From Clostridia bacterium (lineage in GTDB: Bacteria > Bacillota > Clostridia > Lachnospirales > Anaerotignaceae): a DNA stretch of 64,000 nucleotides. The stretch lies in the NCBI GenBank assembly GCA_009929735.1, contig RZZU01000007.1, forward strand, positions 1 through 64,000, read 5' to 3'. Position numbers and translations under genes: made by a program. The notes below the pieces were generated by a model. That model saw nothing but the letters and a program-made list of their open reading frames with translations. It searched no databases and had not been told where the DNA came from. Numbering within the stretch: position 1 is the stretch's first letter; every line of letters begins with the position of its first letter. Below, one piece after another: positions 9,019 through 59,521 of this stretch.

Positions 9019-9130
9019 TGTCATAGAACAAATTTTTGTATCACAGGACAACTTTGTTAAAATACTCCGAAACGCTGATATTTGAGCGTTTTCCCCAGTT
9101 TCCAAGCTTTCTTAATATCCTGGAAAAAAA

Positions 9131-9483
9131 TGGAGATGAGGGGAATCGAACCCCTGTCCGAAAACCCATCCATAAGAACTTCTTCCATCACAGTCAGTCT
9201 TTTAAGATTCCCTCGAGATACCGCCGATTGACAGGCTGTATCCTTTGGTAGCTTCATAAATCTTTTTACGCCGCAAAGCTTAAGCGAAAAAGTGCCCCGC
9301 CTGTTTGACGCCGGTTACTCTGACAGCGAGTGATCAAAGGCCGACGGCTGCCGCAATTAGGCAGCGATTGCTAAATTATTATTGTCTTTTCTTTTTAAAG
9401 GTTTCCGGCTTGGTGACGCAGTTAACCGGGCTGCGGATGGCTATCCCTATTTTCAAGACTCCCGTCGAAACCATTACATCCCC
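9131..9483 (-). ncRNA. ssrA: tmRNA (transfer-messenger RNA)
   Basis: Reading the minus strand, the 5' end GGGGATG at 9483 begins the conserved GGATGTAATGGTTTCGAC block. The 3' end has a T-arm (GGGGTTCGATTCCCC) and CATCTCCA ending at 9131. The 7-bp acceptor stem pairs, and CCA is not encoded. The tag frame ends in NNNLAIAA followed by TAA (complement of 9357-9359). The total of about 353 bases is normal. It lies 24 bases downstream of smpB in the same direction. Confidence 0.96.
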
Positions 9484-50727: not shown

Positions 50728-51759
50728 ATGATTTCGCTGGAAAAAGTAAGCAAAACCTTTCAGGCAGGTGGTGGAGCAATTCATGCGGTGGAGGAAGTCA
50801 GCTTAAGGATTGGCGCAGGTGAAATATTCGGTATTATTGGCTTTTCAGGTGCCGGAAAATCAACCTTGGTTCGGTGTATTAATCTTTTGGAAAGACCGAC
50901 AGGAGGGAAGGTAATCATTGACGGGATTGACCTCATGGGGTTGCCAGAGGTTCGTTTAAGAGAGGAAAGACGAAAAATAGGCATGATTTTTCAGCATTTT
51001 AATCTGTTGCGCTCCCGTAATGTGTACCAGAATATTGCGTTTCCTTTGCGCAAGAGTAAGCTGTCAAACGCCCAAAAGCATGAGAAAATCGTATCCTTGC
51101 TGGAGCTTGTTGGATTGTCCGACAAAAAGGATGCTTATCCATCACAGCTGTCGGGTGGGCAGAAGCAAAGAGTGGCGATTGCAAGAGCTTTGGCAAATGA
51201 TCCAAAGGTTTTGCTTTGCGATGAGGCAACCAGTGCCCTTGATCCGCAGACGACGAAGTCCATTTTGAACCTATTAAAAAAGGTAAATAAAGAGCTGGGA
51301 ATTACAATCGTTTTGATTACCCATGAAATGGCAGTGGTAAAGGACATTTGTGACAGGGTCGCCATTATGGAGCTGGGGCGTGTTGTGGAAGAAGGAGAAA
51401 CAGCAAATGTTTTCTCACATCCTAAGGAAAAGCTAACCCGTGATTTTATGGATACAGCAAGTAACATCAATAAAATATACGAACTACTTGAGGAAGAACA
51501 TGAATTAACACAGATTAAAAACGGTGAAAAATTGGTGCTGCTTACCTATTCGGGCGGGAACGCCGGAGAGTCCGTGATTTCTCATTTGGCACAGGAATAT
51601 CATGTTGAGGCAAATATAATTTTTGGGAATGTGGATATTTTAAAAGATAAGCCCATTGGGAAGCTGGTTGTAATACTAAGCGGAGAAGCGGAAAATATGC
51701 AAAAAGCATTGCAATATATTCAGGACAGAAAAGTAGAGCTGGAGGTGATTAAGGGATGA
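50728..51759 (+). CDS. metN: Methionine ABC transporter ATP-binding protein MetN
   Basis: The 343-residue ATPase has Walker A GFSGAGKST (about 38-46), signature LSGGQKQR, Walker B VLLCDEATSALD and switch VLITHEM. The C-terminal NIL domain (about 270-343) binds methionine and inhibits transport when the cell is replete. The operon order metN-metI-metQ and the T-box with a methionine specifier support the substrate. Its stop overlaps the metI start (ATGA). Confidence 0.96.
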   Translation: MISLEKVSKTFQAGGGAIHAVEEVSLRIGAGEIFGIIGFSGAGKSTLVRCINLLERPTGGKVIIDGIDLMGLPEVRLREERRKIGMIFQHFNLLRSRNVYQNIAFPLRKSKLSNAQKHEKIVSLLELVGLSDKKDAYPSQLSGGQKQRVAIARALANDPKVLLCDEATSALDPQTTKSILNLLKKVNKELGITIVLITHEMAVVKDICDRVAIMELGRVVEEGETANVFSHPKEKLTRDFMDTASNINKIYELLEEEHELTQIKNGEKLVLLTYSGGNAGESVISHLAQEYHVEANIIFGNVDILKDKPIGKLVVILSGEAENMQKALQYIQDRKVELEVIKG

Positions 51760-52433
51760 GTTTTTTATATAAAATTGCCCCTCATTTGGAGTCCTTGCAG
51801 GGCGAATTAATAAAATGTATGCAGCAAACCTTTCAAATGCTGTTTATTTCAGGAACAATTGCATTTGTACTAGGCTTGATTTTAGGCGTACTACTGATTG
51901 TTACGAAAAAAGATGGGCTGATGCAAAATCAGGTAGTATATAAATTTTTGGATAAAGCCATTGACATTGTCCGCTCTATCCCCTTCATTATCCTAATGGT
52001 GCTTTTGATACCCATTAGTCGGGCAATTGTGGGTACGGGTTCGGGTGTTACGGGGTCTTATGTTGCGCTGATAGCGGGAACGGTTCCTTTTTTTGCAAGG
52101 CAGATCGAAACCGTATTATCGGATGTGGATTATGGGATTATCGAGGCAAGCGAGGCAATGGGTTTTGGCCCCACGGAAATTATTTTTAGTGTTTACCTGA
52201 AGGAAAGTATTCCAGGAATTACTCGTGTGACAATGATTACCTTTGTAAGCTTAATTGGTATCACTGCCATTGCAGGGGCGATTGGTGCGGGAGGCTTAGG
52301 AGATTTTGCCATCCGTTACGGTCATCAAATGGGGTACAGAGATATGATTTGGGTAACGGTTGCCATTATTTTGCTGATTATCACTGTGATTCAGTGGATT
52401 GGAAATACCATTATTAGAAAAACAATACACTAA
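51756..52433 (+). CDS. metI: Methionine ABC transporter permease MetI
   Basis: The 225-residue inner-membrane subunit has five spans. The coupling loop EASEAMGFGPTEIIFSVYL is the EAA motif that contacts MetN. IVRSIPFIILMV and GAIGAGGLGDFAIRYGHQ are typical of MetI. It overlaps metN by four bases and precedes metQ by 77 bases. Confidence 0.96.
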   Translation: MSFLYKIAPHLESLQGELIKCMQQTFQMLFISGTIAFVLGLILGVLLIVTKKDGLMQNQVVYKFLDKAIDIVRSIPFIILMVLLIPISRAIVGTGSGVTGSYVALIAGTVPFFARQIETVLSDVDYGIIEASEAMGFGPTEIIFSVYLKESIPGITRVTMITFVSLIGITAIAGAIGAGGLGDFAIRYGHQMGYRDMIWVTVAIILLIITVIQWIGNTIIRKTIH

Positions 52434-52510: not shown

Positions 52511-53386
52511 ATGAAAAAGAATTTGAGAAAATTATTTGCGGCAACATTGGCAACTGCGGTTGTATTAGGCTTGGCAGGCTGCGGTTCTTCGGGCAGTGCA
52601 GAGGAAGCGGCACCAGCAGCAGATGACAGCGCTGAGGTAACGATTGTAAAGGTTGGTGTAGTGGGTGAATACAATGCCCAGTGGGATACTGTGAACGAAT
52701 TGCTTGCAGATGACAATATTCAGGTTGAGCTTGTAAAATTTTCGGACTATGCCGCTCCAAACCGTGCGTTAAACGATGGCGAAGTGGATTTGAATGCATT
52801 CCAACACAAAGCATTCTTGGCAAACGAGATTGAAACAAAAGGTTACGATATTGTAGATATTGGGGATACATTTATTTCTCCCATATCTATGTTTAATAAC
52901 AAAGATAAGATTTCTTCCGTTGCAGATATTCAAGACGGCGATGTGATTGCAATCCCCAGCGATTTGACAAACGGCGGCCGTGCTTTGAAATTAATGGAAG
53001 CAGCAGGGCTGATTGAATGTGACCCTACAAAGGGCTTTGTACCTACAAAACAAGACATCACAAAATATAATAAGCAGATTGAAATTCTGGAAGCAGAATC
53101 TGCAACCTTGGCTAATATGTTACCCGACTGCGCAGCAGCAATTATTAACGGCGGCAATGCTTATACAGCAGGATTAGATGCCAAGGAAGATACAATTTTC
53201 ACAGAAAATGTTGATCCCGCAGTAAATGAATCCGTACCTCAATTAGTGAATGTCATTGTATGCCGTACAGCAGATAAAGACAATGCAGTATATCAGAAAG
53301 TTGTAGAAGCATATCAAACAGAAGAAGTTAAAACAACAATCAACGATGCATACAAAGGTGCTTTTATCTGCGCTTGGGAAGAGTAA
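52511..53386 (+). CDS. metQ: Methionine-binding lipoprotein MetQ
   Basis: The 291-residue protein has a lipoprotein signal peptide with lipobox LAGC (Cys24) and an acidic linker. The NlpA/MetQ fold follows: VKVGVVGEYNAQWDTV, the YAAPNRALNDGEVDLNAFQHKAF block and IPSDLTNGGRALKLME. It is anchored outside the membrane and delivers methionine to MetNI. Paralogues bind other amino acids, but the T-box and MetN NIL domain argue for methionine. Confidence 0.95.
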   Translation: MKKNLRKLFAATLATAVVLGLAGCGSSGSAEEAAPAADDSAEVTIVKVGVVGEYNAQWDTVNELLADDNIQVELVKFSDYAAPNRALNDGEVDLNAFQHKAFLANEIETKGYDIVDIGDTFISPISMFNNKDKISSVADIQDGDVIAIPSDLTNGGRALKLMEAAGLIECDPTKGFVPTKQDITKYNKQIEILEAESATLANMLPDCAAAIINGGNAYTAGLDAKEDTIFTENVDPAVNESVPQLVNVIVCRTADKDNAVYQKVVEAYQTEEVKTTINDAYKGAFICAWEE

Positions 53387-53460
53387 AATAATGATTTCCC
53401 AAAGTGTTAGATAGATGAAAGGATAAAAAAATTTTTTGTATAGAAAATCAGGAGGGGTTT

Positions 53461-53518
53461 ACCCATCCGAAAATACAGATGGGTTTATCGGTTTTTACCG
53501 ATGAGCGCATCTGTTTTG
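53461..53518 (+). promoter_or_regulatory. Mutually exclusive hairpins between metQ and the M20 gene
   Basis: Helix A pairs ACCCATC (53461-53467) with GATGGGT (53478-53484). Helix B pairs ACAGATG (53475-53481) with CATCTGT (53508-53514), enclosing a hairpin ATCGGT/ACCGAT (53487-53492 with 53497-53502), and is followed by TTTT. A and B share bases 53478-53481, so only one can form. This is the layout of an attenuator or small riboswitch, with B as terminator. I recognise no known class. Confidence 0.5.
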
Positions 53519-53584
53519 CTTAGGATTTTTCGGAAAATATTTCATTGACAAATAATAAAATGTGTTGAAAAAGGCGGTGCGGCT

Positions 53585-54763
53585 ATGGCACTAAAGGGCT
53601 ATATTTTAAAGGAAAAAGAGTATATCATTGAATTGAGAAGATATTTTCATGCCCATCCTGAGGTTAGCTTGCAGGAATTTGAAACCTGCAAGAAAATTGA
53701 GGCGGAGCTTGATGCTTTGGGGATTCCACACAGAAGAGTGGGGGAAACTGGTGTATATGCGTGGATTGATGGAAAAAAATCTCCCCAAGGGAAAATTGTT
53801 GCACTCAGGGCAGATATGGATGCCCTTGCCATGGAGGATTTGAAAATAGTTCCTTATCATTCCCAAAGAAAGGGATTTTGCCATGCCTGCGGACATGACG
53901 CCCATTCAGCAACTTTGCTTGGAGCGGCAAAGGTTTTAAAGTCAATGGAGAATGACTTTTCGGGACAGGTGAGGCTGTTTTTTCAGCAGGCAGAGGAAAT
54001 TGGGCAGGGTGCAAGGCTTTTTGTTCAAGAGGGCTTGCTCAATGGATGCGAAAGGATATACGGCGCTCATGTTGCGAGCAGACTGCAAAGCGGTAAAGTG
54101 GCATTGACGAAAGGGCCCCAGTGTGCCAGCTGTGATTATTTCAAAATAACCATAACTGGAAAGGGAGCCCATGTTTCGACGCCACATTTGGGCGTGGATG
54201 CGGCATATATTGCGGCGCAGGTTGTTGTAAACTTGCAGTCCATTGTAGCAAGAAGCACTGCACCGCTGGAAACCGTCGTTGTAGGCGTGGGTGTAATCAA
54301 AGCAGGCACACAGTATAACATTGTTGCGGAAAAAGCGGAAATTGAAGGGACAACCAGAAGCTTTTTGCCCAAGGTGCGCAATTTTACAAATGAAAGAGTG
54401 GTACAGCTAGCGAAGCAGACAGCCGCAATGTACGGTGCTGAGGCTGAGGTTTCTTTTTTGGATTATGCCGCACCCTTAGTAAACGATGGGGATGCAGTAG
54501 AAGAAGTGACGAGGATTGCCGAAAGGCTGATTGAGCGAATAAATATTGTGGAGGACTATGAAAAGGCATTGGGAGCCGATGATTTTGCTGATTATTTGGC
54601 TGTGACAAAGGGAATATATGCTTTTATTGGCACTGGAAACGAGGAGAACCCCAATACAAAGGTTGCCCATCATCACGGTTTATTTGATCTTGATGAGGAG
54701 GCGTTGCTGCTTTCGTGTAACTTGTATGTGGATTATGCTTTACAGGTTTTGGAGACAGAATAA
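53585..54763 (+). CDS. M20-family amidohydrolase (N-acyl-amino acid hydrolase-like)
   Basis: The 392-residue metallo-enzyme belongs to the M20D/YxeP-HipO-like group that removes acyl groups from amino acids. Metal ligands lie in HACGHDAHSA (about 99-108), the catalytic EE pair in FQQAEEIGQGA (about 136), and another histidine in GAHVAS. HHGLFDLDEEALL is the C-terminal ligand block. The dimerisation insert (about 185-295) is present. The position after metNIQ suggests salvage of an imported N-acylated or sulfur amino acid (inference). Confidence 0.92.
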   Translation: MALKGYILKEKEYIIELRRYFHAHPEVSLQEFETCKKIEAELDALGIPHRRVGETGVYAWIDGKKSPQGKIVALRADMDALAMEDLKIVPYHSQRKGFCHACGHDAHSATLLGAAKVLKSMENDFSGQVRLFFQQAEEIGQGARLFVQEGLLNGCERIYGAHVASRLQSGKVALTKGPQCASCDYFKITITGKGAHVSTPHLGVDAAYIAAQVVVNLQSIVARSTAPLETVVVGVGVIKAGTQYNIVAEKAEIEGTTRSFLPKVRNFTNERVVQLAKQTAAMYGAEAEVSFLDYAAPLVNDGDAVEEVTRIAERLIERINIVEDYEKALGADDFADYLAVTKGIYAFIGTGNEENPNTKVAHHHGLFDLDEEALLLSCNLYVDYALQVLETE

Positions 54764-54795: not shown

Positions 54796-54837
54796 GCCAG
54801 TATTACAAGGTAGATCCTGTAATACTGGCTTTTTTTC
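54796..54837. terminator. Bidirectional terminator between M20 and MATE genes
   Basis: Perfect 11-bp arms GCCAGTATTAC and GTAATACTGGC with TTTTTTT on the right and AAAA on the left, between convergent genes. Confidence 0.92.
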
Positions 54838-59330: not shown

Positions 59331-59521
59331 CAAATTCCTGAAGTGTGCGAGAGCTTACCATTTTTGAACCTACACAATTGACTCGGGATTCCTATACGCG
59401 AAAGTTATGTCAGGCCCCAAGATAATTCCCTTTGGGCAGGGGAAGGCAGATACTTTGGCTGCGGTAACCCACCTGGCTTAGGCTAGGTGTCACGCGGTAA
59501 GAACGGCACTTTGGGTTTTTT
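59331..59521 (+). ncRNA. ssrS: Probable 6S RNA
   Basis: About 190 bases of non-coding sequence run from a strong promoter to a T-run. The ends pair (CCTGAAGTG at 59337-59345 with CACTTTGGG at 59507-59515, G-U pairs allowed), and CTTACC pairs with GGTAAG inside. Blocks such as TTTGAACCTACAC and TAACCCACCTGG recall Firmicutes 6S RNA, which binds the sigma-A holoenzyme as a promoter mimic. Identification is from memory of the consensus. Confidence 0.75.

Follow-up and report, generated by a model that had tools for sequence, protein, structure and literature searches.

In the genus Anaerotignum, the spacer between metQ and an M20-family amidohydrolase gene carries a real, conserved RNA hairpin. 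We read this element, with a probability of about 0.68, as a constitutive intercistronic hairpin that would set metNIQ expression above that of M20, through partial termination and/or stabilisation of the 3' end, within an operon controlled by a T-box. The original prediction had seen in the same place an antiterminator/terminator layout. Its terminator-like half holds, with a conserved position, a T-run and a positive terminator score, whereas its antiterminator half does not: helix A, the proposed antiterminator, is broken in two of seven species, shows no covariation and is far weaker than the hairpin with which it would compete.

Table 1. Features of the window, the 64,000-nucleotide stretch of DNA that was analysed, and copies of the dispersed R2 element outside it.
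Feature	Position	Strand	Remarks
tmRNA gene	9128-9483	-	
T-box leader, RF00230	50404-50653	+	head of operon, known regulator; Rfam 122.4 bits, E 1.3e-26
metN, ABC ATPase with NIL domain	50728-51759	+	Pfam PF00005 and PF09383; top NCBIfam match MetN TIGR02314, below cut-off
metI, permease	51756-52433	+	PF00528; top NCBIfam match MetI, below cut-off
metQ, substrate-binding lipoprotein	52511-53386	+	PF03180, E 1.3e-68
P1, upstream hairpin	53451-53468	+	GGAGGG-loop-CCC(A)UCC
Helix A, proposed antiterminator	53461-53484	+	53461-53467 with 53478-53484
P2/P3, terminator-like hairpin	53475-53514	+	53475-53481/53508-53514 (helix B) around 53483-53492/53497-53506; about -25.9 kcal/mol in the window
Short T-run 3' of P2	53514-53521	+	TTTTGCTT
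M20-family amidohydrolase gene	53585-54763	+	PF01546, E 5.1e-29; TIGR01891, 347 bits, above cut-off of 153.75
Intrinsic terminator 3' of M20, operon end	54796-54836	+	seven T
6S RNA gene	59332-59521	+	
R2 copies, outside the window	G000:C2:12249-12332 (L093); G000:C10:153306-153389 (L104); L092, L094, L100, L114, L202, L206, L212		many more

The location within a met operon was correctly recognised beforehand: the spacer that houses the element measures 198 nt and separates metQ from M20 in a metN-metI-metQ-M20 operon. The T-box leader upstream of metN, which had been overlooked, in effect regulates the entire operon, and the spacer, scanned at 9 of 12 matches, gave no promoter of M20's own. 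The leader has an AUG triplet close to where the specifier is expected, as a candidate.

The pairing reported for positions 53461-53518 was confirmed. Helix A (ACCCATC with GATGGGT) and helix B (ACAGATG with CATCTGT) are both 7-bp Watson-Crick helices; they have the four bases GATG (53478-53481) in common and exclude each other. Helix B surrounds a further hairpin of 10 bp, six of them uninterrupted Watson-Crick pairs, and is followed by a run of four T. Two helices of at least 7 bp sharing at least 4 nt arose in none of 5,000 dinucleotide shuffles of the 58 nt, and in 5 of 5,000 when helices of at least 6 bp were accepted. On the plus strand of the whole 64-kb window, the layout appears at only four spots, and inspection of the folds showed the other three to be A+T-rich or weak. 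The minimum free energy of 53445-53560 was -37.5, compared with -20.9 +/- 3.1 in shuffles (z = -5.3), and the entire spacer folded with z = -3.4. P1, a hairpin that the original prediction had missed, competes for the CCCATCC segment, and the resulting layout of segments pairing as 1:2, 2:3 and 3:4 is above chance. The minimum-energy fold of the window also contains an outer helix of 8 bp (53466-53473/53527-53534, TCCGAAAA/TTTTCGGA) that closes around P2/P3; likewise overlooked before, it is absent from the folds of the other species.

An M20 orthologue adjoins metQ in all eight Anaerotignum genomes, and seven of these carry the element in the intervening spacer. Sequence identity reaches 72% in the core, against 22% in the upstream and 49% in the downstream flank. 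P2/P3 is kept in all seven genomes and P1 in six, being remodelled in the seventh; across P1 and P2/P3 together, 90% of cells are paired compared with 40-48% in slid controls. Double changes within the genus number only two and do not exceed those in shuffles, since there is little variation in the arms. The structure is therefore conserved but unproven by covariation, and its support is conservation and the slid controls. In the eighth genome, G002, the spacer (L008) contains a different hairpin (AGGGGCAG...CTGTCCCT), and M20 is preceded by a TATAAT-like promoter box, possibly an alternative solution.

With a covariance model of the element (R1), each of the seven genomes yielded a single strong locus; all other matches within the family were weak. 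Applied to 295 genomes of the order, the model gave a single match in another family at E <= 1e-5, which at 40 bits proved to be a plain terminator hairpin; no homologue outside the genus was found among these genomes, and the element is limited to the metQ-M20 spacers of one genus. The earlier failure to match it to a known class was borne out, as Rfam returned nothing credible in the spacer either at gathering thresholds or at E <= 10 (best matches with E 2.3 and 4.4, well short of the gathering threshold). The element is thus not a T-box, although a T-box controls the same operon. Literature searches on metNIQ with M20, T-box or riboswitch yielded no description of it.

Trp-type attenuators are built of segments that pair as 1:2, 2:3 and 3:4. 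If the spacer held a true attenuator or small riboswitch, pairing of segment 1 (GGAGGGG) with segment 2 (CCCAUCC) would let 3:4 (P2/P3) terminate, and a signal freeing segment 2 would favour 2:3 (helix A) and transcription of M20. The resemblance goes some way: the segments overlap and can pair in two ways, the last hairpin is terminator-like, and the core is well conserved. Moreover, the six central pairs of helix A (CCCATC/GATGGG) are intact in five of the seven species, where P1 (-8.5 to -10.2 kcal/mol) and helix A (-7.3 to -9.2 kcal/mol) are nearly isoenergetic. However, unlike in the trp type, the element lies inside the operon, has no leader peptide, and contains a 2:3 pairing that is unconserved and much weaker than 3:4. 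In G005 helix A has a C-A mismatch and in G007 it has two, yet P2/P3 stays paired in both, so that the two exclusive helices are not maintained together across relatives. Covariation over metQ-M20 spacers, which the original prediction had named as a check, was absent from helix A, with no compensating double change among the seven species. P2/P3 alone (-9.4 to -27.0 kcal/mol) is stronger than helix A (-1.5 to -9.2 kcal/mol) in every species, and folds in which helix A was enforced lose 9-22 kcal/mol relative to the alternative fold. P2/P3 should therefore displace 2:3, and by these energies helix A would not hold its own as an antiterminator against the terminator.

Neither a leader peptide nor a known aptamer that could drive such a switch was found in the spacer. 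In the six species having GGAGG, no ATG, GTG or TTG follows within 16 nt 3' of it; a leader peptide using the Shine-Dalgarno-like AGGAGG is therefore excluded, and a candidate after AGGAGGGG was rejected for its absent start codon. We also dropped a short ORF that would start with the ATG at 53479, since its conservation was not apparent in two relatives read by eye. Nor did we find a conserved aptamer or spread to several genes or taxa, the one match in another family being the plain terminator. The proposal of a new attenuator or small riboswitch is thus unsupported, and we consider it unlikely. A genus-specific three-segment switch, in which P1 and helix A would respond to a protein, an sRNA or a metabolite and tune M20 read-through independently of the T-box, strikes us as distinctly improbable. 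The segments of P1 and P2 cross-pair, and the arms of the two hairpins are similar (CAGGAGGGG/CCCATCC and CAGATGGG/CTCATCTG). The overlap of helix A probably stems from this likeness of neighbouring hairpins, a simpler source than selection for a switch, and helix A is probably not a regulatory state.

The observations fit a leaky terminator within the operon or a hairpin that protects the 3' end. The 17-bp P2/P3 stem runs directly into the U-run, and its terminator score D, calculated with the formula of d'Aubenton Carafa, is 25.0 with a T-run score of 4.4, weaker than the operon-end terminator with 47.7 and 6.0; D was above zero in 15 of 19 spacers. We infer that stem and U-run would work constitutively, causing partial intrinsic termination and/or blocking 3'-to-5' exonucleases on the metNIQ message, and that transporter mRNA, above all metQ, would as a result exceed M20 mRNA. 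P1 would be a genus-specific addition, possibly a further stabiliser. Against a terminator stand the P1 arms, linker and P2 arms, which are more conserved within the genus than a bare terminator requires. Furthermore, two genus members, G003 and G007, have D below zero, and termination may therefore not be the common function. These poor scores would suit a pure mRNA processing or stability device, in which P1 with its AGGAGG would, through a bound ribosome or its own structure, stabilise the 5' end of a cleaved M20 message and termination would play no part, as would the retention of AGGAGG, followed by no start codon, in five of seven species (G003 has GGGAGG). Yet AGGAGG is predicted to be paired inside P1, and P1 is missing from sister genera; we regard such a device as very improbable.

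The same spacer in sister genera often contains a hairpin of different sequence followed by a short T-run (L127-L130, L139, L144, L145, L147, L149 and L168). Such hairpins of other sequence with the same kind of T-run, for example GCAGGTCGG...CCGACCTGTTTTC, occur in Anaerotignum lactatifermentans DSM 14214 as well as in the sister genera; in A. lactatifermentans and its close relatives, the hairpin ends CAG...CTGTTTT match those of P2. Position is therefore conserved even though the sequence differs. Many of the metQ-M20 spacers in other Clostridia are short and lack a hairpin, which counts against the constitutive reading. Hairpins are known to protect messages for substrate-binding proteins such as malE (PMC5927463). 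Like the leaky terminators and protective hairpins of the malEFG type (PMC5927463), the present element is intercistronic, lies directly 3' of the substrate-binding-protein gene of an ABC transporter and is conserved in position; it differs in standing at the end of metNIQ before M20 and in its extra upstream hairpin.

Weak matches of the metQ-M20 model led us to a dispersed non-coding family, captured by a second model (R2), which is more surprising than the metQ-M20 finding. The R2 element is some 220-230 bp long. Covariation is strong in its multi-hairpin core, where 13 of 27 pairs have both partners substituted, a level reached in 0 of 500 shuffles. Of the family's 58 genomes, 40 contain the element, with as many as about 50 copies, and Rfam matched none of the ten loci that were tested. 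Of 38 copies, 16 are bordered by exact direct repeats of at least 12 nt (12-28 nt) at almost constant distances, compared with 0 of 297 mismatched flank pairs, and several of these repeats are terminator-like palindromes. By inspection, the ends of the element bear similar inverted sequences, CAGACTGTCGA and CAGGGTGTCGA. R2 is thus likely a non-coding mobile element that frequently inserts into terminators, duplicating them. REP-type transposases (PF01797) were rejected as its partner, as the window's genome has none yet carries R2 copies; an IS1182-type lead in the literature gave no answer.

Descent of the metQ-M20 element from R2, as a degenerate and domesticated copy, could be read from the reciprocal matches of the R1 and R2 models to each other's families at 20-34 bits and from a common order of features (GG-GGG hairpin, AAAACAG, UUU..., CAUCUGUUU). 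The 12 seeds of the R2 model were, however, themselves selected with R1, and R1 gives as much as 40 bits to the unrelated plain terminator from another family; such scores are therefore no evidence of descent. Inspection of the metQ-M20 spacers revealed neither outer hairpins nor terminal repeats nor flanking duplications, and a simple hairpin whose ends are likewise CAG...CTGTTTT is already present at the same site in sister genera. We hold this origin to be quite unlikely.

In conclusion, overlapping helices can arise merely from the similar arms of adjacent hairpins, and should be read with that caution. The position of the metQ-M20 hairpin is held across genera while its sequence turns over. 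Our analysis suggests how a T-box-controlled operon for methionine uptake can give its transporter and its hydrolase different levels by means of a simple intercistronic hairpin.
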